From NCBI RefSeq assembly GCF_900115675.1, contig NZ_FOXI01000009.1, positions 1 through 64,000 on the forward strand: a stretch of 64,000 nucleotides of DNA, in the 5' to 3' direction. A model generated the notes under the pieces. The model did no database searches and had not been told where the DNA came from. It saw only the letters and a list, made by a program, of their open reading frames with translations. How positions within the stretch are numbered: position 1 is the stretch's first letter; every line of letters begins with the position of its first letter. Origin of the DNA: Halolamina pelagica (GTDB taxonomy: Archaea > Halobacteriota > Halobacteria > Halobacteriales > Haloferacaceae). The position numbers and the translations under genes are program-made. This document shows positions 1,010 to 40,351 of the stretch, piece by piece.

Positions 1010-1034
1010 GGATGGGCCCTGGCGGATTTGAACC
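1010..1034. repeat. Left attachment repeat (attL), copy of a tRNA 3' end
   Basis: These 25 bp are identical to 39412-39436 and cover the acceptor 3' strand and T arm of the CAT tRNA. The bases on either side differ from those at the right copy, which fixes the repeat length. Confidence 0.85.
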
Positions 1035-1062
1035 TCAGTCGTTCCGCTTCGCTTCACTCCCT

Positions 1063-1131
1063 GGTTCAAATCGCCAGGCGACAGCCTCGGCTCCTCACTG
1101 TCGTTCGGAGCACTCGGATGGGCCCTGGCGG
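1063..1131. repeat. Additional tRNA-derived fragments beside attL
   Basis: Positions 1063-1078 hold the T-arm sequence in inverted orientation (GGTTCAAATCGCCAGG), one base shorter than the direct copy, so it can form a hairpin with attL. Positions 1116-1131 repeat the first 16 bp of attL in direct orientation. These look like scars of earlier insertions or of a recombination arm-site array. The rest of 953-1238 shows no convincing gene. Confidence 0.6.
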
Positions 1132-1238: not shown

Positions 1239-2255
1239 ATGTCAGACGGCCTCGAACCCCTCGATCCGCGAACCGCGAAGGAAATGTATCTCGACGACCG
1301 TCGCCACGAAGTCGCTTCGGCGACGCTCCAGTCCCACCACTACCGACTCAAACAATTCGTCGAATGGTGCGAAGACCAGGGTATCGAAAATCTCAACGAG
1401 TTCTCCGGACGCGACATCCATCGTTTCCGCGTGAAACGGAGGGACGAGGACGGCGTTGCGACCGCGACGATGAAGGGTCAACTGGCCACCCTTCGAAAGT
1501 TCCTCCGGTTCTGCGCCAGTATCGATGGTGTCGAACAAGGCCTCGATGAGAAAATCATCCTCCCGACAACTACAGCTGATGATGCCCGTGAGGTGATGTT
1601 AGAGCCGGAACGGGCTCAGAAAGTGTTAGAGCACCTTGACCAGTACCGGTACGCGACACTTGAACACGCACTTCTGACTGTGCTCTGGCATACTGGGCTT
1701 AGAATTGGAGCAGCAATCGGACTCGATATCGGCGACTACAGTGCGGAAGAACAGTACATTGAGTTGGTTCACCGACCCGACGAAGGAACGTCACTCAAGA
1801 ATCGATCTAACGGTGAACGATTGGTCGCGCTCAATAATAGGGTGTGCACCGTTCTTGATGATTGGCTGGAGGTGAACCATCCTGGTGTCGTTGATGATCA
1901 TGGGCGTGACCCATTGTTCGCTACAAACCGTGATCGGTTGAGTCGGAATCGTGGACGGACAATCGCCTATCAGTATTCACGCCCCTGCGTGTATGACGGT
2001 ACTTGCCCTCACGACCGGGATATGGATACCTGTGACTCATTACCTACATCGCAGGCTCATTCGTGCCCGTCTTCACTGAGTCCCCATCCGATTCGGCGCG
2101 GATCTATCACGTATCACCTGCAGCAGGATACACCGAAACCTGTCGTCGGTTCCCGAATGGATCTAGGTTTGGATGTGCTGGACCGACATTACGACGAACG
2201 AACGAAAGAGGAGAAACTACGTCAACGCCGCCAGTATTTGCCAGATGATGAGTAG
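1239..2255 (+). CDS. Tyrosine recombinase/integrase of the element
   Basis: The 338-residue protein has an N-terminal SAM-like core-binding domain (about 15-100) and a C-terminal catalytic domain. Visible catalytic residues are R155 in HTGLRIG, H283 and R286/R287 in HPIRRG, H317 and the nucleophile Y318 in DRHYDER. Four cysteines between about 250 and 276 lie in a loop just before the H-x-x-R box and may bind zinc; the recombinase at 20877-22001 has the same feature. Its place next to attL points to it as the enzyme that inserted the element into the tRNA. The start at 1239 has no Shine-Dalgarno sequence and is probably leaderless. It is transcribed into the element. Confidence 0.9.
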   Translation: MSDGLEPLDPRTAKEMYLDDRRHEVASATLQSHHYRLKQFVEWCEDQGIENLNEFSGRDIHRFRVKRRDEDGVATATMKGQLATLRKFLRFCASIDGVEQGLDEKIILPTTTADDAREVMLEPERAQKVLEHLDQYRYATLEHALLTVLWHTGLRIGAAIGLDIGDYSAEEQYIELVHRPDEGTSLKNRSNGERLVALNNRVCTVLDDWLEVNHPGVVDDHGRDPLFATNRDRLSRNRGRTIAYQYSRPCVYDGTCPHDRDMDTCDSLPTSQAHSCPSSLSPHPIRRGSITYHLQQDTPKPVVGSRMDLGLDVLDRHYDERTKEEKLRQRRQYLPDDE

Positions 2256-8685: not shown

Positions 8686-8928
8686 TCACTCGTTTGAAAA
8701 TCGTTGTTTGAGCGCTTGGTCGGACCACCAAACAGCCCCGGTTTCACCGACCTTCTTCTTCTGTATAGTACCTGATTCCGCAAGATCCTCTAATCGCTGG
8801 TAGGTTCCACGTCGTCCCATATCGATGGCCTCAGCTACATCACGGGTGGTAAGTACAGGGTCGGGAGATTGTTGGAAGACATCGAGAATTTCCTCATCAG
8901 ATACAGTCGGTTTCCGGCCAGCCGCCAT
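8686..8928 (-). CDS. Winged-helix DNA-binding protein
   Basis: The 80-residue protein is a single wHTH: helix LTTRDVAEAIDMGRRGTYQRLEDLAESG followed by a wing and WWSDQ. Its opening GRKPTVSDEEILDVF matches the start of the protein at 18700-19782 (GREPTVSDSELLELF), so both are built on the same regulator module. It is the first gene of a minus-strand group with the HEPN-like gene and is divergent from 9118-9597. The intergenic region contains two palindromes, so it may repress itself and its neighbour. Confidence 0.75.
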   Translation of the reverse strand: MAAGRKPTVSDEEILDVFQQSPDPVLTTRDVAEAIDMGRRGTYQRLEDLAESGTIQKKKVGETGAVWWSDQALKQRFSNE

Positions 8929-9117: not shown

Positions 9118-9597
9118 ATGTTCGACCCCACTCACATCTCGAAGAACACTGACGAAACCGCCTCAACAATCCACCATACCTTGCGCGCTTCAAGACGCCG
9201 GTATACGATCTTCCTATTAATCCATTATCACCCTCAATTACGGGTTGCACCTGACCAGACGGAGTTCTCGAATGGGGGCACCTGCTCACTTTCGGTTCGA
9301 GAACTCGCACGTGAGATAGCGAGTCTCGAAGAAGGAATCTCAAAAGACCAAGCAACCGGGGAAAAATATCGTAACGTCTATAATTCGCTTATACAGACAC
9401 ACCTCCCGAAATTAGCCGAGGTAGGTGCCCTGAACTACAATTCAACGAGCAAGACCGTCAAGCCAGACGAAAACCTCGTCGCGCTGGCCATGGCAGCATC
9501 AATCAGCTGCACCGTCAGTGAACTCATATTCTATTCTTCAATCGTTGACCAATCCGACCACGAGGAAGCGATACTCGACGGCACAATCGACGATTGA
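9118..9597 (+). CDS. DUF7344-like winged-helix regulator
   Basis: The 159-residue protein starts with ASTIHHTLRASRRRYTIFLL (about 16-35), the typical first helix of haloarchaeal wHTH proteins that follow the pattern L...RRR..L..L. A middle insert, SVRELAREIASLE, and HTHLPKLAEVGALNYN form the recognition helix and wing. It is the first gene of a plus-strand series (9118-12922) with a nuclease and a recombinase, separated from the nuclease by 31 nt. A regulatory role for that operon is inferred. Confidence 0.7.
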   Translation: MFDPTHISKNTDETASTIHHTLRASRRRYTIFLLIHYHPQLRVAPDQTEFSNGGTCSLSVRELAREIASLEEGISKDQATGEKYRNVYNSLIQTHLPKLAEVGALNYNSTSKTVKPDENLVALAMAASISCTVSELIFYSSIVDQSDHEEAILDGTIDD

Positions 9598-9628
9598 TGA
9601 TAACCCTCGAAGGCAATATGCCACCAGA

Positions 9629-10801
9629 ATGGACTCAGAGAACAACGAGTTTGTCCTACTCACGAACAAGGGCGAGACGACCCAAACCGGTCCCGGAGAT
9701 GCCGTCGAAGCCTCTCCCGAGGTTGATGAAGCGATCAGAAATCTCGACCCGGATACGTTCAAGAATTGGTGGCAGGAACGCCAAGTTGCCGGGAACATCC
9801 GTAATGGACAACCGTATTTTAACGGAGCAAGCCCAGTCCCGCCCGCTCATCGGCACAGTCCGAACAAATTGCTACGATGCAGCCGGCAGGTGTACTACAG
9901 CCAGGAAAACGCGCCAGAAGAGTCGGACGACCCGTCCGGGATTTTCTGGGCTGGCTCCAGGTTCGAAGAAGATGTCATCGTTCCGTTCCTCGAACAAGAG
10001 GTTATCACTGCAGACCAGTACGTTACGAACTCGATTTGGATCGATTTCTCCGTATCAACCGACGTTGGAGACCTCCGGATAAAGGGCGCAACTGATCCTG
10101 TAATCGTCACTCCTGACTATGACCCAGTGCTCCTCACGGAGATCAAGACAAAACGGTCTCTAGACGGCGTCGAACAACCGAATAAACACCACAAAGCCCA
10201 GGCGCACGCGTACATGCAGGGCCTTTCCGAGAAGTTCGAAGAAGAGGTTCGAGAAGCTGTCCTCCTCTATGGCAGTCGAACCACCTTCGACATCACACCG
10301 TTCTATATCCAGTTTGACCCGGAGTTTTGGCGAGAGACAGTAGTTGAATGGGCGGCACAGCACACTTCGTACCGAATGAACAATACGCTCCCGCCAGCAA
10401 ATCCAGAATACGCATGGGAGTGTGAATTCTGTAGCTACGCGGAGCGCTGTGGGATGGGAGAACGAGAATTCGAAGACGAAGGAGCAACCGGGCTACTACC
10501 GCTGTTCACCGAGTACCCGCGTGAGAAAGTCACCGAATACCTCGACACCCACAGTAACGCAAAACTCACCCCAGCCCTGGCATATGCGTTCTCCGACTTA
10601 GCAGAAGAGCACGCAGTGCATGACTGGTCCTGCCGAGGATGCGGAGAGACGTACGAATGGCAGTCAATCGAATGGCGTCCCTCGAACACCCGCCCACCCC
10701 ACTGTCCCTCATGTGAGAAACAAGGTGAGCGTAGATTCTTATCGGGCCCTCAACCGGTGGATCAGCAACCACTCACAGGAGGTGCTGCCGATGGCACGTG
10801 A
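9629..10801 (+). CDS. Cas4/AddB-like Fe-S PD-(D/E)XK nuclease with C-terminal zinc ribbon
   Basis: The 390-residue protein has the four-cysteine Fe-S pattern of Cas4/AddB nucleases: one Cys in LLRCSRQVYY (about 70) and three in WECEFCSYAERCG (about 270). Between them lie the catalytic motifs: D in KGATDPVIV, E-x-K in LLTEIKTKRS and Q-x3-Y in HKAQAHAYM. A second zinc ribbon (CRGCG...CPSC) closes the protein. I chose ATG 9629 because the longer frame would run back into the preceding gene. Such enzymes are 5'-3' exonucleases or DNA-end processors. No cas genes or CRISPR array are present, so the role is probably with the recombinase encoded downstream. Confidence 0.8.
   Translation: MDSENNEFVLLTNKGETTQTGPGDAVEASPEVDEAIRNLDPDTFKNWWQERQVAGNIRNGQPYFNGASPVPPAHRHSPNKLLRCSRQVYYSQENAPEESDDPSGIFWAGSRFEEDVIVPFLEQEVITADQYVTNSIWIDFSVSTDVGDLRIKGATDPVIVTPDYDPVLLTEIKTKRSLDGVEQPNKHHKAQAHAYMQGLSEKFEEEVREAVLLYGSRTTFDITPFYIQFDPEFWRETVVEWAAQHTSYRMNNTLPPANPEYAWECEFCSYAERCGMGEREFEDEGATGLLPLFTEYPREKVTEYLDTHSNAKLTPALAYAFSDLAEEHAVHDWSCRGCGETYEWQSIEWRPSNTRPPHCPSCEKQGERRFLSGPQPVDQQPLTGGAADGT
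10776..10782 (+). promoter_or_regulatory. Strong Shine-Dalgarno sequence
   Basis: GGAGGTG lies 8 nt before ATG 10791, inside the end of the nuclease gene. It fixes the start of the next gene and implies coupled translation, unlike the leaderless first genes. Confidence 0.6.
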
Positions 10802-11348
10802 TTGGATCCAAGTCGATACTCTCCGAGAAACTTGGATCTTCCTGATCATTCAATCCCGAGACCAAGCCCATTCTGCACAACCAAGTGAACCAAAGGCTCC
10901 GGTATACTGGGAGTTCGGAGTAGGGAACGCTGATCAAATCATCACTACAGAGGCTGAACGACTCGACAGTGGCCAAATCGAGTCAAACACAGAACTAATC
11001 GAAGATCTCGAAGAAGCACTAGAACCCTACCGCTACCAAGAAACGATTCTGATCACCCCCACCAGCAGGATGCTTACTACTCTTCGACGAGAGTTGTGCT
11101 CAAACGGAAGTACTACCGCGAGCCTCCGAGGGTTTCGGCATCTCTCATTAGAACACCAGCTCGTAGAGTACCTTGATGCCGAATTACGAGACTACGAACT
11201 CTCACGAGAGGACTGGACAGCACCCCGGTTTACCGAGACAAACTCCCCTGAAGTCGTGAGCACAGGAACAATCCAAGAATTCTGGGAGATCTGGACGGAC
11301 ATATTCCGACTCCTCCCTGCAAATGAACTCGCGGGGGAAGCAGTATGA
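10791..11348 (+). CDS. Unknown protein in nuclease-recombinase operon
   Basis: The 185-residue acidic protein starts at ATG 10791, overlapping the nuclease stop by 11 nt behind a perfect GGAGGTG. It has no motif I recognise; the middle section (about 90-140) looks alpha/beta, with LITPTSRMLTTLRREL, and the C-terminus ends IWTDIFRLLPANELAGEAV. The tight overlap suggests it acts with the Cas4-like nuclease. Confidence 0.65.
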   Translation: MARDWIQVDTLRETWIFLIIQSRDQAHSAQPSEPKAPVYWEFGVGNADQIITTEAERLDSGQIESNTELIEDLEEALEPYRYQETILITPTSRMLTTLRRELCSNGSTTASLRGFRHLSLEHQLVEYLDAELRDYELSREDWTAPRFTETNSPEVVSTGTIQEFWEIWTDIFRLLPANELAGEAV

Positions 11349-11397
11349 CTTCCCAACAATCAGCTAAGCAGCAGTCCCAGTGGCGAGGGGAAATGTG

Positions 11398-11928
11398 ATG
11401 GTAGATGATTCAGAGTCTACCTTCACCCGTCGGAAGTTTACCATCACAGAGACATTAGACGAGACTCTTGCTAAACTCGCCCAACAGCACTACCAGGGCA
11501 ATATCAGCTTGTGTATTCGTGCTGCGATCGAAGACCACCGGAAGACACTGAACGGAACCGGGGATGCACAAACGATGAGAGGTATTCAGAAAGATCTGGA
11601 GCGGTTGGCAGACCGGCAGGACTCACTCTCAGCGGCCATCGACGAACTTGACTTATCTGATGCAGATTCTAGAGAAGTAGCGAAACCCCACCGAGACCCG
11701 AGTGATGGGGGGACTTCATACGCCTGCAATGTAGCTCGGGATGCGATTCGAGAGGCAGAAAGACCAGTCCGGATAGAAGATTTACAGGAACGGCTCGAAC
11801 TGCCACTCTCAGAACTGCAACCAGCACTTGGAACACTACTTGATAGAGGGACCATCGTTCGAACAGATGAACACCCGTCTCGGTTCCAATTGGCCGGGTA
11901 TCATCGGACACAGGGTAAGTATGAGTAG
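11398..11928 (+). CDS. RHH-coiled coil-wHTH regulator upstream of recombinase
   Basis: The roughly 176-residue protein has three parts: an N-terminal ribbon-helix-helix (RRKFTITETLDETLAKLAQQHYQGNISLCIRAAIEDH, about 10-48), a coiled coil (about 60-85) and a C-terminal winged helix (IEDLQERLELPLSELQPALGTLLDRGTI). The same three-part design is found at 17716-18270, and both genes directly precede a tyrosine recombinase. ATG 11398 is preferred over 11380, as a purine-rich GAGGGG lies before it. Its stop overlaps the recombinase start by 8 nt. It may regulate the cassette or help place the recombinase on DNA. Confidence 0.75.
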   Translation: MVDDSESTFTRRKFTITETLDETLAKLAQQHYQGNISLCIRAAIEDHRKTLNGTGDAQTMRGIQKDLERLADRQDSLSAAIDELDLSDADSREVAKPHRDPSDGGTSYACNVARDAIREAERPVRIEDLQERLELPLSELQPALGTLLDRGTIVRTDEHPSRFQLAGYHRTQGKYE

Positions 11929-12922
11929 TGACCAGCAGGATTCGGAGTCGTACAGAGTCGCGGACGAGTATGCGCGGGAGTACCTCAGTCGAAACGAAGG
12001 GGTGACTCTCGCTTCATCATCTGTCGAGACGTATGATGGGCATCTGACGGAGTACGTTTCATTTCTCGATCAGCGTGACCGAACGGTAGTTAATGCGGAG
12101 TTCCAAGATGTCCTCGACTATCTCGACTGGTGTGTTCGGCGCGGAAACCGGAAAAGCACCCTCAGTTCAAAACTCGCCACAATCGGTGAGCTCTACAGGT
12201 ACATCCGCCTTCGAACGGATGTTGGAGATGAGCTAGGGTTGGATCCGATTCGGTTCCAAGAGATCGACCTGAATCAATTCAATACACCGCCGCCAATCGA
12301 ACGGGACGCCCTTTCTCGGGATGAAATTCGGCGGTTGTTCGACGCGTTTGATAGTTTCCGAAACCGTCTGATGGCGATCGTAGGTGTTGAGACTGGGCTA
12401 CGGAATTCCGACATCCGGAATCTCCGTCTTGAGGATATCGATGAGAACACCATTCACGTTCGAAACCCGAAGAACTCGAAGCCCTACGACGTCCCCATTA
12501 GTAACGAACTCGCGTTCGAAATCCAGCACTGGAACCGTCACCACCGTCCTGGCTATTCCGCTGCAGCAGAAAGTCCGTATCTATTTCCAAGTCAGTGTGG
12601 GGAACGCTTAGAAGCAAACGGGAGTTTGAACTCGATTATCCGTACTGCTGCAGAACGAGCTGGGATTCAGGAAGTAATCGGGGAGTCCCAAGTTCGAAAG
12701 CAGGAGGGAGATGGCAAGGAGGTTGAGTGTCGAGAATGGCATCGGGTTACTGTTCATACTCTTCGTCATTCCTTCGTGACGCTGCTAAAGGACGCGGGGG
12801 TGAATCTGAATTATCGGATGTTGGTCGCCAACCATGCCGATTCAGACACTACTCGTGGATATACTCACGGAGAGAATGAGGCGTTCAGTCTGATTCGGAG
12901 CCGTTTCGATCCACCACGGTGA
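11921..12922 (+). CDS. XerC/D-type tyrosine recombinase
   Basis: The 333-residue protein starts at ATG 11921 inside the end of the RHH gene (ATGAGTAG overlap). It has a core-binding domain (about 12-105) and a catalytic domain with R161 (TGLRNSD), H279 and R282 (HTLRHSF), H305 and Y314 (TTRGYTHG), so it appears complete. It is paralogous to 16548-17711. It ends a five-gene run with a Cas4-like nuclease; its target site is unknown, though a degenerate repeat lies right behind it (12931-12966). Confidence 0.88.
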   Translation: MSSDQQDSESYRVADEYAREYLSRNEGVTLASSSVETYDGHLTEYVSFLDQRDRTVVNAEFQDVLDYLDWCVRRGNRKSTLSSKLATIGELYRYIRLRTDVGDELGLDPIRFQEIDLNQFNTPPPIERDALSRDEIRRLFDAFDSFRNRLMAIVGVETGLRNSDIRNLRLEDIDENTIHVRNPKNSKPYDVPISNELAFEIQHWNRHHRPGYSAAAESPYLFPSQCGERLEANGSLNSIIRTAAERAGIQEVIGESQVRKQEGDGKEVECREWHRVTVHTLRHSFVTLLKDAGVNLNYRMLVANHADSDTTRGYTHGENEAFSLIRSRFDPPR

Positions 12923-12930
12923 TTCGGTTG

Positions 12931-12966
12931 GAATTTATCACTGGTTGAGGATTTCAACAGGGTCTC
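12931..12966 (-). repeat. Degenerate right-end repeat (GAGGATTTCAACAGGGTC)
   Basis: Read on the minus strand it gives GACCCTGTTGAAATCCTCA, like the left ends at 29542 and 15553. It sits 8 bp after the recombinase stop. Confidence 0.45.
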
Positions 12967-15552: not shown

Positions 15553-16304
15553 GCCTCTGTTGAAATCCTATTGGTTAGACACCATCTGCTGTGAAACACC
15601 CGGTAAGTGGGGTTGCGCACCTAACACGAATCACTCATACGAGGAATGATTTCTTCGCGTTCTTCTTTCTGAAGAATGGCTTTGATATAGACAGGATACT
15701 CATCCTCTGTATCCGGTGAATCGCTTGCAGAAGTGACGATAATTGAGCTCGGCGCGACCTTTTTCAGAAGGTCATATGAGGGGGAAGGAAATTCAATATC
15801 CGCATTGTCAATCGACGGTACAATTGTCCGGGTGGTTACTAATATCCCCGAATCGTACGGTTGGATAGGGATTTTCTCAACGATACAGTCTGTTCGGTTT
15901 GAAACAGTCCTTCTCAATTCCTGCTCTATATCGTCCAGAGAAGTGTTTCCCATAGAGACTTCAATTAGACTACCCTCTGTTTGAGTCGGGCCAATCGTCC
16001 TTACTGGATTTGATTCGGTAGGAGGGCCTGTCGAAGAAGATGGGGTATCTCCAAGGCAACCTCCTATTGAGACTACAACGAGAGCAGGGAACTTCTGAAT
16101 GGCTGACCGGCGGCCCATCGAATCCATATTCCAATTTATAAATCGAACGGAATAAATGAAAGGGTGTTCCTGACTTATACTCCGTTGTGATTCAGTAAAC
16201 GGTTGCTCTGTACTTAGCGATTTGACTCCGACCTCTTGGCCGACAGACGCTCCGTCTTCAGTAGCACTTGAAAACTATCAGCAGCTTAGGATTTCAACAG
16301 AGCC
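15553..16304. mobile_element. 752-bp transposable unit with 18-bp TIRs carrying a lipoprotein gene
   Basis: The left end GCCTCTGTTGAAATCCTA (15553-15570) and the reverse complement of the right end, GGCTCTGTTGAAATCCTA (16304-16287), differ at one base. An 8-bp direct repeat GTTCATGC flanks it (15545-15552 and 16305-16312). No transposase lies inside, only the lipoprotein gene 15621-16127. An 8-bp duplication and a terminus like GGCxCTGTTGxAA recall the IS6 family, so it may be a non-autonomous derivative moved by a transposase elsewhere in the genome. Family assignment is inference. Positions 16305-16547 to its right hold no gene. Confidence 0.65.
15621..16127 (-). CDS. Lipoprotein, function unknown
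   Basis: The 168-residue protein has a short GRRSAIQKFP start, a hydrophobic stretch and the lipobox SIGGC (Cys near 24), then a Ser/Thr/Pro linker common in haloarchaeal surface lipoproteins. The body (about 50-168) has no motif I know. It is the only gene inside the TIR-bounded unit 15553-16304, which makes it cargo, or the remnant of something larger. Confidence 0.65.
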   Translation of the reverse strand: MDSMGRRSAIQKFPALVVVSIGGCLGDTPSSSTGPPTESNPVRTIGPTQTEGSLIEVSMGNTSLDDIEQELRRTVSNRTDCIVEKIPIQPYDSGILVTTRTIVPSIDNADIEFPSPSYDLLKKVAPSSIIVTSASDSPDTEDEYPVYIKAILQKEEREEIIPRMSDSC

Positions 16305-16547: not shown

Positions 16548-17711
16548 TCACACGTCCGGGCTTGGGAACGCACTCGACATACCCTCTTTTATATCACTAT
16601 TGTTTCCGAAATAATATTTTTGTGTCGTCTCCATAGAATCATGACACAAGACGAGACTTATATCTTTCAATTCATATCCTTCTTCAGCCAACAAGTTCGA
16701 AAAGGTGTGACGAAGGGTATGTGCGGTAACTCGGTGAAATCGTTTCTCAGGACCTATCCCGAGGATTTCCTGCTGCCGCTCCGTTAATGGCATCGTCCCA
16801 ACTACTTCTTGGATTCCAGCTCGTTCAGCAGCTCTCTTGATAATCGCATTGAACTGTGTACCACTCAATGCCCCTCCCTGTTCACTCGGGAACAAGTATT
16901 TACTGTCCTCTGCATCGGGAAGGGAAGGTCGTTCGACGGACCTCCAGTGTCGCAATCGGAGGGCCAAGTCTTCACTCAATGGAAGGGTATATCGACCTCC
17001 GCTCTTCGTATTCTTCAGTTCAATTTCCCGCCCTTCTATGTCGATATCATCCAGCTCGATTGTCCGAAGGTCCTCACTTCGGGGACCTAACTCAATACCC
17101 GCTTGTACCAGTAGCCGATTTCTGAATGTCTTGAGTTCCTTAAATAGTCGTTTGGCTTCCTCTTTGTCAAGCGGCTCTCGTTCCATTTCTGGCGGAGTTT
17201 GAAATGACGAGGGGGTTATTTCCTCTCTGACAACTTCCCAACGAACTTCAGGTTCCACGTGACGGTAGAGTTCTATGTGTTTCATCACCCCAGTAATCAC
17301 AGTCCGATAAATCTCGATCGTTGATTCCGAACGACCGGAACGAGCGAGCTTTTTCATAAATCTACCCACATCTTTCATAGTCGCATTTTGAAGAAGTGTT
17401 TCGTGCTCGTGGAGATGTTCTATGAAATAGCGGAGTCGGCTCGAATATGTTTTCGCAGTACTCTCTTTGAATTTCGCATTAGTATTGTCTCGTAAGTAGT
17501 CAATGGCATGTCCGCAACCTGGGTCGTAGAGATCTGCTTCGTCCATAAGATCTTGCCAATCCTTGTCGTTCTCTTCTGCCCAGCACGGACAGGTATCGAA
17601 ATCGGATTCAGGGGTACTGGTTTCTGAACCGGAAGTATCCTTATCCGTGGTGGAAGGTGGTGATTCTTCGCTGTTCGTGAAGTCGTCGAGTGTCGTTGTA
17701 GCGTCTGTCAT
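16548..17711 (-). CDS. XerC/D-type tyrosine recombinase
   Basis: The 387-residue protein carries R211 (GPRSEDLR), H331 and R334 (HTLRHTF), H357 and Y366 (TTQKYYFG), so the catalytic set is complete. The N-terminus has an acidic Ser/Thr-rich leader, then CPCW and CGH motifs (41-43, 66) that may bind zinc, before the core-binding domain (about 72-160). It is a paralogue of 11921-12922 and, like it, follows an RHH-wHTH gene, here by 4 nt. The two cassettes point towards each other across the toxin-antitoxin pair and the 752-bp unit. Confidence 0.87.
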   Translation of the reverse strand: MTDATTTLDDFTNSEESPPSTTDKDTSGSETSTPESDFDTCPCWAEENDKDWQDLMDEADLYDPGCGHAIDYLRDNTNAKFKESTAKTYSSRLRYFIEHLHEHETLLQNATMKDVGRFMKKLARSGRSESTIEIYRTVITGVMKHIELYRHVEPEVRWEVVREEITPSSFQTPPEMEREPLDKEEAKRLFKELKTFRNRLLVQAGIELGPRSEDLRTIELDDIDIEGREIELKNTKSGGRYTLPLSEDLALRLRHWRSVERPSLPDAEDSKYLFPSEQGGALSGTQFNAIIKRAAERAGIQEVVGTMPLTERQQEILGIGPEKRFHRVTAHTLRHTFSNLLAEEGYELKDISLVLCHDSMETTQKYYFGNNSDIKEGMSSAFPSPDV

Positions 17712-17715
17712 TTAC

Positions 17716-18270
17716 CTAATCAGGGGTGTTGATGTCGTAACGGTGTTGGTCGTCGGTGTCGATACTGGTGACGAGCCCTTCATCCACGAGAGATTGGATT
17801 GCTTGATGAACATCTGTCACCGACTCATCGCAGACTTCTGCGAGTTCTTGAACTGGCAGTTCGCCCTTGTCCAATAATGCTGAGTAGACGGTGTTTCGGA
17901 CAGCATCAGACACGTCCGTATCACGTGCCTTCACCGAGTTCTGAACAGCAGGATTCGCAGACCCAGTAGAAGCACCACCGAGCTGGCTATTCCCAGGGTT
18001 CATGCTTGAAATGTCGTCCAACCGGTCTTCGAGGGACTGAACCTGGGATGTGAGCTGTTCGATCCGGGAAAGAAGCTGTTCAGTAACTGTGTCACCGTCT
18101 TCGGATACAGATTTGTTGAGGTGCTCAATTGCAGCGCGTAGCGCCTCACTTCGAGACGCATACCGGTCTTCTGCCAGTCGATCCAGCAGGTTGTCGTGTC
18201 GCGGCGTGATGGTGAAGTTCGGCCTCACCATCTCTGTTGACTGATTGGACCTATCGTGTCTTGCGGCCAC
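17716..18270 (-). CDS. RHH-coiled coil-wHTH regulator upstream of recombinase
   Basis: The 184-residue protein from GTG 18270 has an RHH domain (VRPNFTITPRHDNLLDRLAEDRYASRSEALRAAIEHL, about 15-50), a coiled coil (about 60-90) and a C-terminal wHTH (NTVYSALLDKGELPVQELAEVCDESVTDVHQAIQSLVDEGLV). The GTG is preferred to the ATG at 18285 because GGAGGTGATC, which spans that ATG, is a perfect Shine-Dalgarno sequence for it. It has the same architecture as 11398-11928, with low identity. It is coupled to the recombinase 4 nt downstream. Confidence 0.8.
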   Translation of the reverse strand: MAARHDRSNQSTEMVRPNFTITPRHDNLLDRLAEDRYASRSEALRAAIEHLNKSVSEDGDTVTEQLLSRIEQLTSQVQSLEDRLDDISSMNPGNSQLGGASTGSANPAVQNSVKARDTDVSDAVRNTVYSALLDKGELPVQELAEVCDESVTDVHQAIQSLVDEGLVTSIDTDDQHRYDINTPD

Positions 18271-18273
18271 GAT

Positions 18274-18283
18274 GATCACCTCC
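18274..18283 (-). promoter_or_regulatory. Ten-base Shine-Dalgarno sequence deciding a GTG start
   Basis: GGAGGTGATC matches the anti-SD of archaeal 16S rRNA over its full length and is placed 3 nt before GTG 18270. It therefore masks the apparent upstream ATG. Confidence 0.6.
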
Positions 18284-18699
18284 ATTCACCTTGCAGGTAT
18301 GATTCGATCCATCATACCGACGCACGCAGCCGTGGTTATTGCTCGGACGTAGTTCGCTGCCGGTTTGCCTAGAGAACTGTTCCTTTACCGTGGTGTTCAC
18401 GCGGCTCGGCTTCGGGCGCTCTCGAAGCACTTGACCCGCGGAACGTTGCTGCTTTGGTTCGATTACCACACTTGAGAGATGGGGTTGGAACACCAACCAC
18501 GCTGGCAAATCTGACAGAGATATCAAAACCTTCCGCTAGTAAGAAATTCATTCAGACGAGGTGTAGACGATCGAATATAATAATTGGGATTCTGATGCTA
18601 AGAACCCATACAGAGTCTGTGAATACCGTATTCAGGACTTGGGTAGGGAATACGATTCGCTACGAAGCGTGCTCTAATAGGAGGTATAGCTAATGCCTC
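18284..18699. other. Intergenic region, no gene seen
   Basis: This is the upstream region of the RHH/recombinase pair. Short frames on both strands lack any familiar pattern. AT-rich stretches near 18570-18590 could hold promoters, but I cannot define one. Confidence 0.35.
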
Positions 18700-19782
18700 T
18701 CAAAATCCGGTTATCTCATTCTCTACAACTCGAATCACTTGGTCCTGGGTCTCTTCCACCCATTTCTTCACATTGCGGAGGGAACGGCTAGTTTCATCCT
18801 TAAATACTTCATTTGGATCCACGTCGAGAGAACGAGTCCGGGCCACTAACACAGTCGAATCTTCCTCAATTAAGTCACGCCAATTCGCAGTAAAACTGAA
18901 TGCTGCTTCAATACGATCTTTTGACTGAACGATTTCTCGGAGTACTTCCGGATCATCTTGGATTTGTACCCCGTGGCCTAGTTTCGCAGACGAACCCGAC
19001 CACATAGGCTCATCCGAAGTTAAGAGGTAATATAAATCAATACCTTCGAAATCTAAACCCTGAGTTAGTACACTAGTATGATTCTGTGAAGGTTTCCCGA
19101 GAGAATCATGTCTTCCAATGACGTGTGTCCATAACCTGTCGTGACATTCGTAATCTAAGCGATCACGATGAGTGCCCCAATCGTTCCATAAGGCACAATC
19201 TCCATGTTGTCGTAGCCAGGATGCCATCTCAGTCAGCTGCCACTCCTTCTCTGTTTCAAAGAGCCTGAAAAAACAAGACTGATCAAGCGCTTTTTTGACA
19301 CAGTTATTCCAGAGGCTCTCGGGTGATGAGTACGAATCAGGGTCTGCGCCCCACGCAACCAATTTTAGCCTCCCTGCACTATCGCTCTCATTATCAAACA
19401 AGAACTTGAATACTGAGTTAACCGCTTGACGCCGCTGTTGAAGGGCTTCTCCCCTCCCTGGCAACTCTAGCGAATCTACTACTTCGACGTCAATTGATTC
19501 GAGGTCTGCCTCTGTCGATGACCATGTTCGCTTTACGCCGATTCGACTGTGCCACCACAACCGAACACGATTCTGGGCCGTAATCATCCGCGACCCAACT
19601 CGATCGTCCTCGCTCAAAGTTTCGAGTCTGGAGCGAACTTGGCGTTCTCCAATGGGAATCTTCTCGGCGAGTTCGCTCGTTTTCAGAACCGGCACATCGG
19701 CATCATCAAAGAGTTCTAATAACTCAGAATCAGATACGGTCGGTTCTCTTCCTCCTGCAGCTGAATCTTCTCCCATCGCCAA
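18700..19782 (-). CDS. wHTH-fused protein of unknown function
   Basis: The 360-residue protein has an N-terminal winged helix (about 13-80: PTVSDSELLELFDDADVPVLKTSELAEKIPIGERQVRSRLETL, then a wing ending RLWWHSR). It shares the GRxPTVSDxExL opening and the WW motif with the wHTH at 8686-8928. The remaining 280 residues include LKLVAWGADPDSYSSPESLWNNCVKKALDQ and WLRQHGDCALWNDWG, which I do not recognise. A regulatory N-terminus with a sensor or effector domain behind it is the likeliest reading. Confidence 0.6.
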   Translation of the reverse strand: MAMGEDSAAGGREPTVSDSELLELFDDADVPVLKTSELAEKIPIGERQVRSRLETLSEDDRVGSRMITAQNRVRLWWHSRIGVKRTWSSTEADLESIDVEVVDSLELPGRGEALQQRRQAVNSVFKFLFDNESDSAGRLKLVAWGADPDSYSSPESLWNNCVKKALDQSCFFRLFETEKEWQLTEMASWLRQHGDCALWNDWGTHRDRLDYECHDRLWTHVIGRHDSLGKPSQNHTSVLTQGLDFEGIDLYYLLTSDEPMWSGSSAKLGHGVQIQDDPEVLREIVQSKDRIEAAFSFTANWRDLIEEDSTVLVARTRSLDVDPNEVFKDETSRSLRNVKKWVEETQDQVIRVVENEITGF

Positions 19783-20072
19783 TTGCTGGAACCAATCACT
19801 AATTAATCATGACGGTCTCCTCATCACATCCCTCACTAACAGATTGGCACCAATTGGGAGGAGATCAACTAGGAACATTCTCACAACCGGAATGTTTTGA
19901 TATCTAACTCAGTTTTGCAAGCGGGGTTGATGATAGCCTCTCTACACTAAGACGCGATGCGATACCAGAATAAAGCCGAACAGTCTCCCACCGTCTGGGA
20001 GGTAAACAATCGGAGTACCGAGCAACAGTCACGCGGCGACCTACGCGCGCACGGACGTACCAATAGAGAAGG

Positions 20073-20087: not shown

Positions 20088-20876
20088 ATGGAAGACGCAG
20101 TCGAGCAGTATCTTGATTCCATCTCGCGCACGTTTACCGAGGCCACAGTCAGGTCGCACAAAACAACTCTACAAGCCTTCCGGCAGTATTGCGAGAACCA
20201 CGGCCTGACTGAGGAGAAGCTAACACCCGAACAAGCTGCTAAGTTCCACCTCACTACTGCGGATTCAAAAGCATCCTCAACGGTCCAAGGTGAGATAGCA
20301 ATCTTGGGCCGCTTCCTATCCGGAGCCTGGAACACTACGCCTGAAATCGCCACCGCTCAAATCAAAACCGCGGTTAAACGGGAAGGTACGAACGGAGATC
20401 ATGATTCGAATCAAGGACCAAACCTCGCAGTAGTCCAGAACCCCAACTACGACCACAAACAGGTAGAGGAATTCATAACGAGACTGCGGCGCTGTGAATT
20501 CGGAAACCGGGCGCACGTCCTTGTCGAGCTACTGCTTGAAACCCATGGAAGAATTTACCAAATTCAGCAGCTCAATCTGAACGACTTAGACCGGGTAGCC
20601 GGAACCATCGCGCTAAAACTGCGAGGGACCCCCAGCAGTCAAACCGATACCAGAACCGAAAATCTCTCCGAGGAGACTCTCACAGCGCTTTCAACCTATA
20701 TAGATCACGAGCGTGATCCTATCGATAGTACCCCAGAACCGTTGTTGACGACGCATGCAGGGCGTGCTACGACCGATACCCTCCGGCGATCGATAAAGCG
20801 GGCGAGTAAATCACACGGTCAGGATAGTATTGTAACTCCGATTGACATCCGGCGGTTCGCGCTCTCACGAGAATAA
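20088..20876 (+). CDS. Tyrosine-recombinase-like protein lacking the catalytic tyrosine
   Basis: The 262-residue protein has a core-binding domain (about 3-75: EQYLDSISRTFTEATVRSHKTTLQAFRQYC) and the start of a catalytic domain. The usual GLRxxE box is replaced by THGRIYQIQQLNLNDLD (about 150-166). It stops at IDIRRFALSRE, where an active enzyme would continue through H-x-x-R to the tyrosine about 40-50 residues later. Its TAA abuts the ATG of the next, complete recombinase, so the two are translated together. It may be an inactive partner subunit or a decayed gene; the good Shine-Dalgarno sequence and open frame favour a used protein. Confidence 0.7.
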   Translation: MEDAVEQYLDSISRTFTEATVRSHKTTLQAFRQYCENHGLTEEKLTPEQAAKFHLTTADSKASSTVQGEIAILGRFLSGAWNTTPEIATAQIKTAVKREGTNGDHDSNQGPNLAVVQNPNYDHKQVEEFITRLRRCEFGNRAHVLVELLLETHGRIYQIQQLNLNDLDRVAGTIALKLRGTPSSQTDTRTENLSEETLTALSTYIDHERDPIDSTPEPLLTTHAGRATTDTLRRSIKRASKSHGQDSIVTPIDIRRFALSRE

Positions 20877-22001
20877 ATGTCGGAGGCGTTGGCGGAGGCA
20901 TTGGCTGAAATCGACGATCCGGGAACGATCAGTCAACTCCTTCACGAACTTGACGTGGGGGAGGATGACTTTGATTCCGTTCCTGACCAGCGTACGCTCA
21001 AAGAGTTATTCGAGCGGTACCTCCTCCGCCGACGCGATCGGAGCCCATCAACGATTTCCCAGTACAAACGCACGATTCCAGAGTTCATTGACTTCGCCGA
21101 CGAGAAGGGCGTCAAGTATCCAGCCGAATTATCTGAAAGTCTCATCGACGCTTTCGTCGATGAGTTATTTACCAGGTACGAGGCTGCTGCTACGATTATT
21201 ACCTACACGAAGAATGTTCGCGTATGGTTGAACTGGCTCAACAAGCGGGATCTTTGTCCGGCTAATTTACGCGACCTGCTCGACAAGGAAGAACTTGGAC
21301 TGTCACCGAATGCGCGTGATGAGGCCCTGCCCGAATCAGAGGCCATGCATATCATTCAGAAGCACCGGGCACAACGATACGGGACAGCACAGCACGCGTT
21401 AATCGAGTTACTCTACAATTCCGGTCTACGGATTGGGGAGGTTCATTCACTCGATGTTGGGGATCTGCTTTCGGCGAGCAATGATTTACATGTCCGACAC
21501 AGGCCAGACGAGGGGACACGGCTCAAAAATGGGGCAAGTAGTCACGGCTCCCATAGCGATGGTGAGCGGAATATTACACTCAAGCCGACAGTCGTGGATG
21601 CACTGGAAGAGTACATCGCAACAGACAGGGTAGATGTGACGGGAGATTTTGGCCGGGAACCTTTGTTCAGCACACAGCATGGGCGGGCTTCACGTTCAAC
21701 CCTCCGAAGATGGACGTACCAAGCGACGAGCTGCCGGTGGGCCAACGAAGATGCGACAGAGGTTACGTGCGATGGATCCTGTGATCCCGATTCTGACGTC
21801 TGCCCGTATTCGTATTATCCTCATGCGGTCCGTCGAGGGTCGATTGTTAATCATTTGAACGGAGACTTGCCTCACGGGAAAGCAAGCGAACGGTTCGACG
21901 TCTCAATCCCTATTATAAAACGACATTATGATCCGCGGGTGAAGGAAACCCGGAAACAAGAACGAGCGGATGCCGTGCAGAATGCTTGGTCCGATTTCTG
22001 A
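20877..22001 (+). CDS. Tyrosine recombinase/integrase
   Basis: The 374-residue protein has a core-binding domain (about 37-125) and a catalytic domain with R185 (NSGLRIGE), H and R in PHAVRRGSIVNHL (about 316-320) and the nucleophile in IIKRHYDPR (about 350). A Cys-rich loop (CRWANEDATEVTCDGSCDP...C) sits before the H-x-x-R box, as in the element integrase 1239-2255, to which it is the closest relative in the window. It abuts the truncated recombinase-like gene upstream. A tRNA-like fragment lies about 190 bp downstream and may be its own old attachment site, meaning one element inserted inside another. Confidence 0.88.
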   Translation: MSEALAEALAEIDDPGTISQLLHELDVGEDDFDSVPDQRTLKELFERYLLRRRDRSPSTISQYKRTIPEFIDFADEKGVKYPAELSESLIDAFVDELFTRYEAAATIITYTKNVRVWLNWLNKRDLCPANLRDLLDKEELGLSPNARDEALPESEAMHIIQKHRAQRYGTAQHALIELLYNSGLRIGEVHSLDVGDLLSASNDLHVRHRPDEGTRLKNGASSHGSHSDGERNITLKPTVVDALEEYIATDRVDVTGDFGREPLFSTQHGRASRSTLRRWTYQATSCRWANEDATEVTCDGSCDPDSDVCPYSYYPHAVRRGSIVNHLNGDLPHGKASERFDVSIPIIKRHYDPRVKETRKQERADAVQNAWSDF

Positions 22002-22713: not shown

Positions 22714-24216
22714 ATGGCCATCTCCTTAGACGAACTCGAATCTCACCTCTTCAAATGCGCCGACATAATCCGCGACGCCGTTGACCCAACCGACTACAAG
22801 GAGTTCATCCTCCCGCTCGTCTACTACAAATCCATCTCCGACGAGTTCGAGGTGCAGTACGAACAGAACGTCGAGGAGTACGGTGAGGACTTCGCCCGCA
22901 GAGAGAATCTCTACGACATTCCGGTCGTCCCCGAGGGCTACCTGTGGGACGATCTCCGCGCCGTCAGCGACAACGTCGATCAAGCCCTGAACGAGGCCTT
23001 CGACGCGCTCGTTGAGGAGAACCCCGAACTCTCTGGCGTCTTCCGAGCTGACTTCATTGACGCCGACGCCCTCGACGACGACCGACTCGGACGGCTGATC
23101 GAACACCTGGACACCTACGACCTTGACCGCGACAGCGTTCCCCCGGACATGCTCGGGGAGGCGTACATGGACTTGGTGCGCCACTTCGCGGAGGAGGAGG
23201 GCAAGTCCGGTGGGCAGTTCTTCACGCCGCCGCACATCGTCAACCTCTGCGTTCGGCTCGTCGATGAGTTCGAGGACGGGATGACGTTCCACGACCCGAC
23301 TGTCGGCTCCGGGGGGATGCTCATCGAGGCGGCGCGGTACTACCGCGAGGAGCAGGGCGGCGACCCGTCGAAGATGAAGTTCACCGGGCAGGAGATCAAC
23401 CCCGACATTGCCGCGATTGCGAAGATGAACCTCTCCATCCACGGCCTCGATGGGGATATTCAGCGCGAAGATTCACTTTCCACCCCCGCGTTCACAAACG
23501 ACGACGAGAACGAACTCACGCGCTTCGAACGCGTGCTGGCGAACTTCCCGTTCTCCGCCGATTGGGACAAGGACAGTCTTCAGGACGACCCCTACGGACG
23601 CTTCGACTGGCACGAGAAACTCCCGCGTGCTGACCGAGGGGACTACGCCTTCATCATGCACATGGCAAAGCAGTTGAAGCGTCCCGATCAGGACGGTGCT
23701 GGTGGGAAAGCGGCCATCGTTGCCCCGCACGGCGTGCTGTTCCGCAAGCACGAATCACGGTATCGGGAGTATATGCTGGAGGAGGATATGGTGGAGGCCA
23801 TCGTTGGCCTTCCCGAAAACCTGTTCCAGAACAACTCGATTCCCTCGGCGGTTCTCGTTCTGAATACGGACAAGGCGGAGGAGCGTGAGGGTGAAGTGCA
23901 GTTCATCCACGCCGCCGACGAGGACTTCTACGAGGAGCTGTCGAACCAGAACGAACTCACCGAGGACGGGCTTGACCACATAGTCGAGAACTTCCGCGAT
24001 TGGGCGACTGAGGAGCGCGTGAGTCGGACGGTGTCGCTGGACGAGATTCGAGAGAACGACTACAACCTGAATATCGCGCTGTACGTCGATACGACCGAGC
24101 CAGAGGAGGACATTGACGTGAAGGAAGAACTGGTGAAGCTACGTGAGTTGCAGGCAGAGCGTGACGAGATTGAGGCGACAATGAAGGGGCACATGGAGGC
24201 TCTCAACTATGAGTGA
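22714..24216 (+). CDS. hsdM: Type I restriction-modification system M (methyltransferase) subunit
   Basis: The 500-residue protein has the N-terminal helical domain of HsdM (about 1-140), the lead-in GGQFFTPPHIVNLCVRLV (about 168-185), the SAM motif DPTVGSGGMLIEA (about 194-206) and the catalytic N-x-P-F box as NFPFSADW (about 279-286), where most enzymes have NPPF. It transfers a methyl group from SAM to adenine in the site chosen by HsdS. Its end overlaps the hsdS start by 8 nt (ATGAGTGA). Base composition is close to the core genes, unlike hsdS. Confidence 0.95.
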   Translation: MAISLDELESHLFKCADIIRDAVDPTDYKEFILPLVYYKSISDEFEVQYEQNVEEYGEDFARRENLYDIPVVPEGYLWDDLRAVSDNVDQALNEAFDALVEENPELSGVFRADFIDADALDDDRLGRLIEHLDTYDLDRDSVPPDMLGEAYMDLVRHFAEEEGKSGGQFFTPPHIVNLCVRLVDEFEDGMTFHDPTVGSGGMLIEAARYYREEQGGDPSKMKFTGQEINPDIAAIAKMNLSIHGLDGDIQREDSLSTPAFTNDDENELTRFERVLANFPFSADWDKDSLQDDPYGRFDWHEKLPRADRGDYAFIMHMAKQLKRPDQDGAGGKAAIVAPHGVLFRKHESRYREYMLEEDMVEAIVGLPENLFQNNSIPSAVLVLNTDKAEEREGEVQFIHAADEDFYEELSNQNELTEDGLDHIVENFRDWATEERVSRTVSLDEIRENDYNLNIALYVDTTEPEEDIDVKEELVKLRELQAERDEIEATMKGHMEALNYE

Positions 24217-25543
24217 GGAGGCTAAGTTGGACGAGTCCGCTCAAGAAATGAGTTCTGAGGAAAACCCTGAAAGGCCGGATGATTGGGGTCGTAGGCCTCT
24301 TTCTGAAATCAGCCTTTGGACAGATGCTGGAGGCACACCAAGAACCTCAAATGATGAATATTGGGATGGAGATATTCCGTGGGTTCAGACGGGTGAACTT
24401 ACAAAAAGACATATCAGAAGTACTGAGAAGCACATTACAGAACTTGGTTTAGAAGAATCGACTGCCAAACGATTCCCGCCGGGGACACTCCTGATTGGAA
24501 TGTATGGTGAGCCGACTGTGGGTGAGTCGGCGTTACTTGAGATAGAGGCAACCACTAACCAGGCGTGTTGTGGTGTATCCCCTAATACGGATATTATCAA
24601 TGCGGAATTTCTGCATCAGATGATGCAGTACGAAAAGCCCCGTCTCTATTCTCTCCGTGCAGGCTCTGGACAACAAAACATTCGACAGGGGATTATTCGG
24701 AAGTTCGAGATCGACATACCACCCCTCTCCGAACAGCGCAAGATCGCCACCGCCCTCTACACGGTTGACCGGGCAACTGAGAAAACTGAGGAGATTATCG
24801 GAAGAGTGAGTCGTATCAAGAAGGGGTTCAAGCAAGATGTTTTTTCAAAGGGGTACTTTGACCACCAGTCACATCAAGAAAGTCAAGTTGGGAAGATACC
24901 AGAGTCGTGGAAAATTGAGTCGGCGGCTGACTTGTGTGATGGAATTACCGTGGGTGTAGTTACAGGCGCGACAGACTCCTATGTCTCACCATCTGAAGGG
25001 GTGCCGTTCATACGGTCACAAGATATTCACGAAAATCACATCGAACAGGACTCATTGAAATACATATCTGAAGAATTTCACGAACAGCAGAATAGCTCAG
25101 AGTTACGCGAAGGCGATGTGATTACTGTTCGGACAGGTGAACCAGGAACAAGCTGTGTCGTCCCCGCTGAATTAGATGGCGCAAACTGCTTCTCGTTAAT
25201 AATCTCCCGACCAAAGGAGGAAGTTAACGAGCGGTTCTATAGTTACTACATCAATTCAGAGAAAGCGCTTGATTTCATTGACTCTTGGAAAGCTGGAGGT
25301 GTACAAGATAATTTCAACGTGGGGGTGATGGAACGCTTGCCAGTCCCCGTACCAACTCCGGAAGAACAGCAAGCAATCGTAGATTCGCTTGATGACATTA
25401 ATCACCACCTTGAGTCTGAACGTGAATATCGTAACCATCTCCAGCGACTCAAACGCGGTCTCATGCAAGACCTCCTTTCGGGGAAAGTCCAAACTACCGA
25501 CACTAACATAGAGGTGCCCGAAGAAGTCGCCCAACATGGTTAG
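24209..25543 (+). CDS. hsdS: Type I restriction-modification specificity subunit
   Basis: The 444-residue protein contains two target-recognition domains. Each ends in the conserved P-x-x-EQ helix start: IPPLSEQRKIATALYTVDRATEK (about 170-192) and VPTPEEQQAIVDSLDDINHHLESER (about 388-412), the two spacer helices that set the gap in a bipartite site. LKRGLMQDLLSGKV closes the second. The site itself cannot be read from sequence. The gene is more AT-rich than hsdM and hsdR, as is common for specificity genes that are exchanged. It overlaps hsdR by 8 nt. Confidence 0.95.
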   Translation: MSEEAKLDESAQEMSSEENPERPDDWGRRPLSEISLWTDAGGTPRTSNDEYWDGDIPWVQTGELTKRHIRSTEKHITELGLEESTAKRFPPGTLLIGMYGEPTVGESALLEIEATTNQACCGVSPNTDIINAEFLHQMMQYEKPRLYSLRAGSGQQNIRQGIIRKFEIDIPPLSEQRKIATALYTVDRATEKTEEIIGRVSRIKKGFKQDVFSKGYFDHQSHQESQVGKIPESWKIESAADLCDGITVGVVTGATDSYVSPSEGVPFIRSQDIHENHIEQDSLKYISEEFHEQQNSSELREGDVITVRTGEPGTSCVVPAELDGANCFSLIISRPKEEVNERFYSYYINSEKALDFIDSWKAGGVQDNFNVGVMERLPVPVPTPEEQQAIVDSLDDINHHLESEREYRNHLQRLKRGLMQDLLSGKVQTTDTNIEVPEEVAQHG

Positions 25544-39411: not shown

Positions 39412-39436
39412 GGATGGGCCCTGGCGGATTTGAACC
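39412..39436. repeat. Right attachment repeat (attR) within the tRNA 3' end
   Basis: Identical over 25 bp to 1010-1034. Twenty-two of the bases are the tRNA acceptor strand, discriminator and T arm; three lie beyond its 3' end. Confidence 0.85.
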
Positions 39437-39528
39437 ACCGATCGCCCGGTGTCCCACAGTGCCGACACGAGTGTATCGACGATCTGATATGAGCCGGGTG
39501 CTCTGAGACCAGACTAAGCTAAGGGCCC
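39415..39528 (-). tRNA. tRNA-Met (CAT), with intron
   Basis: The acceptor stem GGGCCCT (39528-39522) pairs with AGGGCCC (39422-39416), with discriminator A at 39415. The D arm (GCTT...GAGC), anticodon arm CCCGG-CTCATA-A-CCGGG and T arm GGTGG-TTCAAAT-CCGCC all fold. The anticodon loop is interrupted after position 37 by an intron of about 37 nt; 77 nt remain after removal. Haloarchaeal elongator tRNA-Met is known to carry an intron here, so elongator Met is preferred over Ile2. No CCA is encoded. It is the integration target of the element. Confidence 0.85.
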
Positions 39529-39572: not shown

Positions 39573-40283
39573 TCACAAACTACTCTTCAGTAGTAGAGCC
39601 TCGATAGGTGCCTCCCCGCGTTGGATCACCACGACCTCCTCCCCGGCTTCCTGGAGGTGTGAGATCTTGTCCTCGAACCCATCCTCGTTCGGTCGAGTAC
39701 TATCAGCGTACCCGTCCACCTCGATCCAAAGGTCCTGTTCCGGAAGGTGAAAGTCCGCAATCCACTCCGTGTCTTCGATCGGAGGATGTGGAACGTACTC
39801 GATCTCTCGCTCGAATAGCGCTTTTGCAACACGTTCCTCTTGGGTACTCGCTAACTCCTCTCCTTTCGGGCCCGAACAACTGGTTCCGTGCTTTTCCCCG
39901 GCGGGCACTCCGGCGGCGTTACAGGCATCCCGCCAAGAACCGAACTGTTTCTTTATTACGCTCGTCGGATATACACCGAGATCGTCGTACTGTCGATGCG
40001 TCAAATGTGGCGTTTCAACCGCCATATACGCCCCAGCAAGATCCCTGCACATCCGAGGCTCTTCCGTATTCCCGTACGCAAGTACCTGCGTTTCCTCCAA
40101 TCCAGCGTCCGCTAGAACGTCGAGCCAGTTCCCGTCCGCGTATTTGTAGATCGTCGAAAGAGAAGGAAACCGGTCGTCAGCTGCTGCTTCCGCTGTCGTA
40201 GGGGAGCGGCCGAGTTCTTCGGCGAGATCCTGCGTGACTTCGACCAAAGCCTGATGGGACCACTGGCCGCCGGACGGGGGCAT
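39573..40283 (-). CDS. Homing-endonuclease-repeat protein with Vsr/PD-(D/E)XK-like nuclease domain
   Basis: The 236-residue protein from ATG 40283 has two helical repeats of the homing-endonuclease-associated type (LGRSPTTAEAAADDRFPSLSTIYKYADGNWLDVLADAGL, about 18-56, and the segment ending TSVIKKQFGSWRDACNAAGV near 120). A C-terminal nuclease-like domain follows: EERVAKALFEREIEYVPHPPIEDTEWIADFHLPEQDLWIEVDGY, with D and E-x-D where PD-(D/E)XK/Vsr enzymes have catalytic acids. It lies outside attR, between two tRNA genes. DNA cleavage is inferred. Confidence 0.7.
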   Translation of the reverse strand: MPPSGGQWSHQALVEVTQDLAEELGRSPTTAEAAADDRFPSLSTIYKYADGNWLDVLADAGLEETQVLAYGNTEEPRMCRDLAGAYMAVETPHLTHRQYDDLGVYPTSVIKKQFGSWRDACNAAGVPAGEKHGTSCSGPKGEELASTQEERVAKALFEREIEYVPHPPIEDTEWIADFHLPEQDLWIEVDGYADSTRPNEDGFEDKISHLQEAGEEVVVIQRGEAPIEALLLKSSL

Positions 40284-40351
40284 GTTGGTAGTTCGACTCC
40301 TGATGTGACAAAAGCATCTGGCCGGGACAGACGTACCTTCGAAAGGATCGA

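Follow-up and report, generated by a model that had tools for sequence, protein, structure and literature searches.

What can a nuclease of the Cas4 type be doing in one operon with a tyrosine recombinase? The question is raised by five genes in a 64,000-nt stretch of haloarchaeal DNA (Halolamina pelagica, contig NZ_FOXI01000009.1, positions 1 to 64,000), referred to as the window; all coordinates are positions within the whole of it. With moderate confidence, we read the operon as a swappable nuclease–recombinase mobility module belonging to a defence-carrying integrative island at a tRNA-Met gene. The initial annotation described five plus-strand genes, and their gaps, overlaps and GGAGGTG were all found where it had placed them. 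The wHTH (winged helix-turn-helix) gene is separated from the nuclease gene by 31 nt, the nuclease and 185-aa genes overlap by 11 nt, GGAGGTG at 10778-10784 precedes the 185-aa gene, and the genes of the RHH-wHTH (ribbon-helix-helix and wHTH) protein and the recombinase YR1 overlap by 8 nt. The genes and their order are thus real; the description is incomplete, as the operon is part of an array at 1239-22001 within an island at 1010-39436, and the tRNA-Met setting had been missed. The operon and its divergent neighbour are as follows:

8686-8928, minus strand: small wHTH protein, divergent from the operon, its position conserved
9118-9597, plus strand: DUF7344 wHTH protein, operon gene 1 (family match, E 8e-17)
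9629-10801, plus strand: Cas4-like PD-(D/E)XK nuclease, matching the PDDEXK_1 and cas4 TIGR00372 profiles
10791-11348, plus strand: 185-aa protein; the predicted fold is DnaQ/TREX-like (RNase H), the DEDD catalytic acids being absent
11380-11928, plus strand: RHH-wHTH DNA-binding protein, the wHTH half assigned by family and the RHH half through resemblance to its paralogue RHH2
11921-12922, plus strand: tyrosine recombinase YR1, with R161, K184, H279, R282, H305 and Y314 all conserved

The co-occurrence of the 185-aa protein, the nuclease and the recombinase in other genomes had been set beforehand as a test, and the three proved to be neighbours elsewhere too. In a survey of 194 Halobacteria genomes, the 185-aa protein is present in 10; its gene lies directly behind the nuclease gene in nine of these and adjoins a YR1-type recombinase gene in all ten. 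The nuclease is found in 27 genomes at any strength of match (24 strong), and strong matches to the RHH-wHTH protein occur in 7–8. The association of the nuclease with the 185-aa protein has a Fisher p of 1.4e-8, which is too generous given that related genomes were treated as independent. The genomes G064, G078, G118 and G023 (G, C and L numbers denote genomes, contigs and loci) share one gene order: small wHTH, then wHTH, nuclease, 185-aa protein, RHH, YR1, RHH2 (or RHH), YR2, YR3 and YR4. The same order from the small wHTH to YR4 is seen in Natrialba chahannaoensis and Natronomonas sp. CBA1123. Since an identical order recurs across other genera and families, the operon is beyond chance.

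Whether the motif residues of the nuclease are conserved in its family had also been put forward as decisive. Across 21 aligned homologues, the PD-(D/E)XK/RecB residues D156, E171-x-K173 and Q191 are invariant, as are C84, C265, C268 and C274, which follow the Cas4 pattern of one N-terminal and three C-terminal cysteines and are predicted from the sequence to be ligands of an iron–sulfur (Fe-S) cluster. The four cysteines of a C-terminal zinc ribbon (C335/C338/C359/C362) are likewise invariant. The match to cas4 TIGR00372 (E 2e-11) scores 44.2 bits, below the curated cut-off of 65, and no cas1 or cas2 was found among the window genes scanned or, by PADLOC, among the neighbours examined, which bears out the earlier remark that no cas genes are nearby; for these two reasons, the protein is termed Cas4-like and not a CRISPR Cas4. 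PADLOC matches it to Cas4 models only. A profile search of Protein Data Bank (PDB) sequences returned Cas4 SSO0001 (4ic1) as the sole match, and the predicted structure (mean pLDDT, the predicted local distance difference test score, of 72, with low confidence in the N-terminal cysteine region) has the same protein as its top fold match, followed by MGME1, EXO5, RecE and AddAB types. Of the label "Cas4/AddB-type" the first half holds; AddB-type is less apt, as profile and fold both rank Cas4 SSO0001 first. A virus origin of the nuclease was considered and dropped, with no match among phage records or viral contigs.

The main evidence on the function of the nuclease comes from its neighbours. 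In approximately 85,000 species genomes 35 nuclease loci were found, all of them haloarchaeal as judged by title, and three classes of neighbours can be distinguished: the 185-aa/RHH/YR1 set; a serine recombinase (SR1), a TFIIB-family protein and a second serine recombinase (SR2); and Cdc6 upstream with a DDE transposase downstream. On a quick tree of 56 nucleases, with support from the Shimodaira–Hasegawa-like approximate likelihood ratio test (SH-aLRT) only, the partner class changes nine times (minimum 2; shuffled mean 22). The starred branches force at least five partner changes for each of the serine and tyrosine recombinase labels, and the DDE class forms nearly one group. The swap can be seen directly in G181 and G064, whose islands share a chromosomal place: their DNA is 87% identical over the small wHTH, wHTH and nuclease genes, and behind this region lies a serine recombinase module in G181 and a tyrosine recombinase module in G064. 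That one nuclease family is accompanied by recombinases of three unrelated kinds suggests specialisation in aiding the movement of mobile DNA.

Two of these classes have features of their own. The TFIIB-family (TFB-like) protein is constant in the serine recombinase version (L012 8026-8811, G079:C2 1793951-1794934, G181:C3 3331544-3332341 and others), so that this version is a mobile element carrying its own general transcription factor. A plasmid or chromosomal unit that recurs (L011, L013-L016, L086, L088, L166-L170 and L177) has Cdc6, the nuclease behind it and, in most cases, a DDE_Tnp_1 transposase further along.

Profile scans found no family for the 185-aa protein. A model built from ten sequences (pLDDT 77) resembles DEDDh exonucleases over almost its whole length, pointing to a DnaQ-like fold: the match with TREX1 has Z 12.9 over 155 aligned residues at a root-mean-square deviation of 3.4, and 3'hExo (Z 12.8) and Pol III epsilon (Z 12.5) follow. 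In the ten homologues N46, R81, R99, R113, G114, W165, L174, P176 and G182 are invariant; no acidic column is, D9 alone being nearly so, and therefore the active site looks lost. The protein is probably a nucleic-acid-binding partner and not an exonuclease. The RHH-wHTH protein, which starts at GTG 11380 or at a later internal ATG, is a candidate recombination directionality or architectural factor. By sequence comparison, YR1 has the full R-K-H-R-H-Y catalytic set of tyrosine recombinases.

The operon lies within a 38.4-kb island (1010-39436) bounded by perfect 25-bp direct repeats, with the following borders:

1010-1034: attL, outer copy, 25-bp direct repeat GGATGGGCCCTGGCGGATTTGAACC, 3' end of tRNA-Met
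1116-1131: attL, inner copy, 16 bp
39412-39436: attR, second copy of the 25-bp repeat
39415-39528, minus strand: intron-containing tRNA-Met(CAU) gene, the integration target (ARAGORN with introns)

The attR copy is the 3' end of the tRNA-Met gene, the GC fraction is 0.516 within the island and 0.69–0.70 outside, and the YR0 gene begins 205 bp inside the left repeat copy. The same layout is found in G064, G118, G181 and G078, with attL cores of at least 14 bp beside YR0 and the tRNA-Met 31–40 kb away. When the two flanks of the window island were joined and searched for in congeners, near-empty sites were obtained in G218, where 335 bp separate the flank from the tRNA-Met, and in G219, where the distance is about 0.8 kb. 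The island is an element integrated site-specifically at tRNA-Met, and YR0 most likely inserted it.

Several further observations concern this site. In other congeners it holds inserts of 2.8 kb (G074:C1 1342256-1345096) and 4.6 kb (G042:C1 2369253-2373876). The double att, with copies about 106–112 bp apart, is seen in the window (1010-1131), G181:C3 3351188-3351326 and G177:C1 129260-129400, and similarly in G104:C4 around 506000-506200; between the copies lies a strong hairpin made of inverted tRNA T-arm-like sequence. Just beyond attR, between tRNA-Met and tRNA-Asn, an HNH_repeat (homing-endonuclease-associated) protein is encoded at 39573-40385. G057 was dropped as a small 11-kb island: its att copies are inverted, and G057:C1 187650-239902 is therefore better read as an inversion-broken island, the apparent inversion taking in the tRNA-Met and a nuclease–serine recombinase module.

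Five tyrosine recombinase genes, YR0 to YR4, are present in the island; those outside the operon are listed with the partner of YR2:

1239-2255, plus strand: YR0, SNJ2-type tyrosine integrase adjoining attL, 46% identity to the SNJ2 virus integrase over 99% of the length
16548-17711, minus strand: YR2, second tyrosine recombinase; orientation inverted in the window and G176, co-linear in G064, G078, G118 and G023
17716-18285, minus strand: RHH2, RHH-wHTH partner of YR2
20088-20876, plus strand: YR3, tyrosine-recombinase-fold protein without the catalytic C-terminus
20877-22001, plus strand: YR4, SNJ2-like tyrosine recombinase whose catalytic set is intact; it follows YR3 immediately in every case

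Both homology to IntSNJ2 and the tRNA attachment site mark YR0 as an SNJ2-type integrase. YR3 stops before the HxxR...Y motif in 14/14 sequences and is for that reason expected to be catalytically dead; YR4 and YR0 retain the motif. Close relatives of YR0 (at least 70%) occur in 14 genomes and those of YR4 (at least 53%) in 15; the two are found together on one contig in 13 (p 2e-17), and in G114 they converge with hardly any gap. YR0, YR4 and YR3 are thus the co-occurring core of the island. The nuclease is found in 10 of the 15 YR4 genomes (p 2.5e-7), in nine of them in the same region. In G064, YR4 is interrupted by a 1.6-kb insertion sequence (IS; G064:C1 1185438-1187068, L071 2438-4068) that has several near-identical copies in the genome. 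An invertible YR2–RHH2 module was considered and rejected: it is inverted in the window and G176, yet no matching inverted repeats flank it.

The island carries defence cargo. A type I restriction–modification operon (HsdM, HsdS, HsdR) occupies 22714-28493 on the plus strand, and the candidate defence protein PDC-S39, an HsdR_N protein, a MazF-like toxin and a Schlafen AlbA_2 protein are also encoded. Elsewhere, McrBC lies between the wHTH and nuclease genes in G118, and G040 has a GmrSD-type enzyme. Such an island helps to explain the gathering of defence genes at the haloarchaeal tRNA-Met. Three copies of the sequence AGGATTTCAACAG lie between YR1 and YR2 (12948-12960; 15557-15569, minus strand; 16288-16300), and it is also found downstream of YR2 at locus L070, in these places at the edges of cassettes; GGATTTCAACAG occurs just four times in the genome. 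Because G078 carries AGGATTTCAACAG at the edge of an IS5-family-like copy (the IS5 name being taken from an annotated relative), the copies are read as transposon ends, probably of an IS5-type transposon or of a miniature inverted-repeat transposable element (MITE) with a lipoprotein-like gene (15621-16127). Integron-like capture through AGGATTTCAACAG was discarded on this resemblance and because no equivalent site was found behind YR1 at other loci. A 55-nt inverted repeat (80%; 18491-18545 and 19878-19932) flanks a gene for a 360-aa protein (18700-19782) whose N-terminus is like that of the small wHTH protein; it resembles a small transposable cassette.

How might the module work? If it is a mobility module, YR0 would insert and move the island at tRNA-Met, the wHTH proteins would regulate the module, and YR1 with its RHH-wHTH partner would perform a second site-specific recombination. 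The Cas4-like Fe-S nuclease, aided by the DnaQ-fold protein, would trim or nick single-stranded ends or intermediates of the YR1 reaction. Nuclease and recombinase would then be exchangeable halves: across sister elements, one nuclease family would work alongside enzymes of the tyrosine, serine or DDE kind. What is inferred is a common DNA substrate for nuclease and recombinase, the cleavage polarity and the part played by the 185-aa protein. Several points weigh against such a module: co-location is no proof of a joint reaction; in about 6 of the 35 loci a recognised recombinase is not directly beside the nuclease; on plasmids the nuclease stands behind Cdc6, which could mean a role in replication or repair; it is YR0, not YR1, that adjoins the attachment site; and neither an excised circle nor activity is documented for this island. 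A bolder version, in which a general-purpose Cas4-like end processor adopted by three unrelated recombinase classes prepares ends together with its DnaQ-fold partner, so that islands move and take up defence cassettes, would be the recombinase counterpart of the Cas4/DnaQ trimming in CRISPR adaptation; we consider it unlikely.

Other explanations have to be weighed against the mobility module. The wHTH–nuclease–recombinase operon may be an independent nested element, with YR1 as its own integrase and its own target, that lies in the tRNA-Met island by chance. This is a possibility of some substance, although doubtful, and it overlaps the preferred explanation, as the nuclease would still serve a recombinase. 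The operon lies far from YR3/YR4/YR0 in G037 (1.1 Mb) and G181 (1.13 Mb), occurs in a tRNA-Met island of G040 where YR0/YR3/YR4 were not found, and has related serine versions near tRNA-Glu or tRNA-Arg. Against chance nesting, the presence of the nuclease near YR4, described above, and the nuclease–recombinase–YR3–YR4 order repeated in several families can be noted; no operon-specific terminal repeats were convincing among the short repeats sought around the operon. Searches of G040 and G037 gave no clean empty sites for solo operons. It is rather improbable that the nuclease serves haloarchaeal plasmids and islands in replication or repair, as a RecE/lambda-exonuclease-like end resection enzyme or a Cdc6/Orc1 partner, with recombinases as mere mobile-DNA neighbours: its place directly behind Cdc6 on plasmids and its fold matches to RecE, lambda exonuclease, EXO5 and MGME1 fit this, but the tyrosine and serine recombinase versions lack Cdc6, the gene that follows their nuclease encodes the recombinase or a partner of it and often overlaps, and the Cdc6 version, too, has a DDE transposase 1–2 kb further on.

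Cargo capture, in which end processing by the module lets new defence cassettes insert beside it, is hardly probable either. In its favour, inserted genes separate wHTH from nuclease in G118 (McrBC), G078 and G177, and the closely related nucleases of G064 and G181 are followed by different modules; yet no common junction sequence was found at the cargo borders, the AGGATTTCAACAG repeats resemble IS5-type ends, and the module swap is accounted for by homologous recombination at the nuclease gene. The initial annotation had suggested either a DNA-capture or rearrangement machine or an integrase module with a dedicated end processor. Our results agree with a conserved unit in which an integrase-type module has a Cas4/RecB-type nuclease of its own; a self-contained capture machine is so far unsupported, because the borders fit YR0, serine and DDE partners occur and AGGATTTCAACAG more likely represents IS5-type ends. 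Least probable of all is a defence system whose Cas4-like nuclease attacks invading DNA beside bystander recombinases: the operon does lie amid restriction and candidate defence genes, but PADLOC gives Cas4 models only, with no cas1/cas2 among the neighbours examined, and the cargo varies among islands while the operon stays, recombinase neighbours being the constant feature.

Site-specific recombinases are generally thought to need no dedicated nuclease. A nuclease that remains constant while its partner changes between tyrosine, serine and DDE enzymes would suggest that the movement of mobile elements shares an end-processing step not recognised so far, and that mobile-element Cas4 has a role outside CRISPR. 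Cas4 of mobile elements forms a named category (PMC5704561), and the window nuclease is alike as a Cas4-family nuclease in mobile DNA; the terms haloarchaea, integrase and transposase are absent from the main text of that survey. Some casposons couple a Cas4-like nuclease with a Cas1 integrase. Unlike solo Cas4 and casposons, the window nuclease has tyrosine, serine or DDE partners, an extra C-terminal zinc ribbon and no Cas1 among its neighbours, and no Cas1 match was found among the window proteins scanned. A review of archaeal tyrosine recombinases uses neither the term Cas4 nor the term nuclease, and no description of the nuclease–recombinase module was found in the open-access literature, supplements aside, an absence that is no proof.

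With SNJ2-type elements and pleolipovirus proviruses the island shares an SNJ2-type integrase (YR0) and the tRNA-Met target, which is also that of SNJ2 (PMC5867852). It differs from them in four more recombinase genes, the nuclease module, the defence cargo and the lack of recognised viral structural genes; ten island proteins tested gave no PHROG structural match.

The closest parallels in organisation are bacterial. GInt elements (ginABCD), reported to be absent from archaea (PMC5385486), are likewise islands in which one end carries several tyrosine recombinases, among them GinC without catalytic residues; variable cargo and site-specific insertion with direct repeats are also shared. They have a single ginABCD operon with a GinD helper and no described Cas4-like nuclease, whereas the window island has three core recombinases in two converging units and a further nuclease–recombinase operon. 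YR3–YR4 with the converging YR0 are not three consecutive recombinase genes, and no search was aimed at GinD. SE elements, which the available part of their description gives from Gammaproteobacteria only (PMC10214605), combine there two active recombinases with a catalytically dead recombinase-fold protein, Tfp, as YR4, YR0 and YR3 do here. In the same part they differ in a Srap helper, and no nuclease is described (PMC10214605). The gene order here is unlike intA-tfp-intB-srap, a dead recombinase is a common feature, and no search was aimed at Srap. The best reading is that the window module works like the bacterial GInt and SE elements, yet is a member of neither. Islands that combine several recombinases with a dead recombinase subunit have been known in bacteria; the window island adds an archaeal form that is separately organised.

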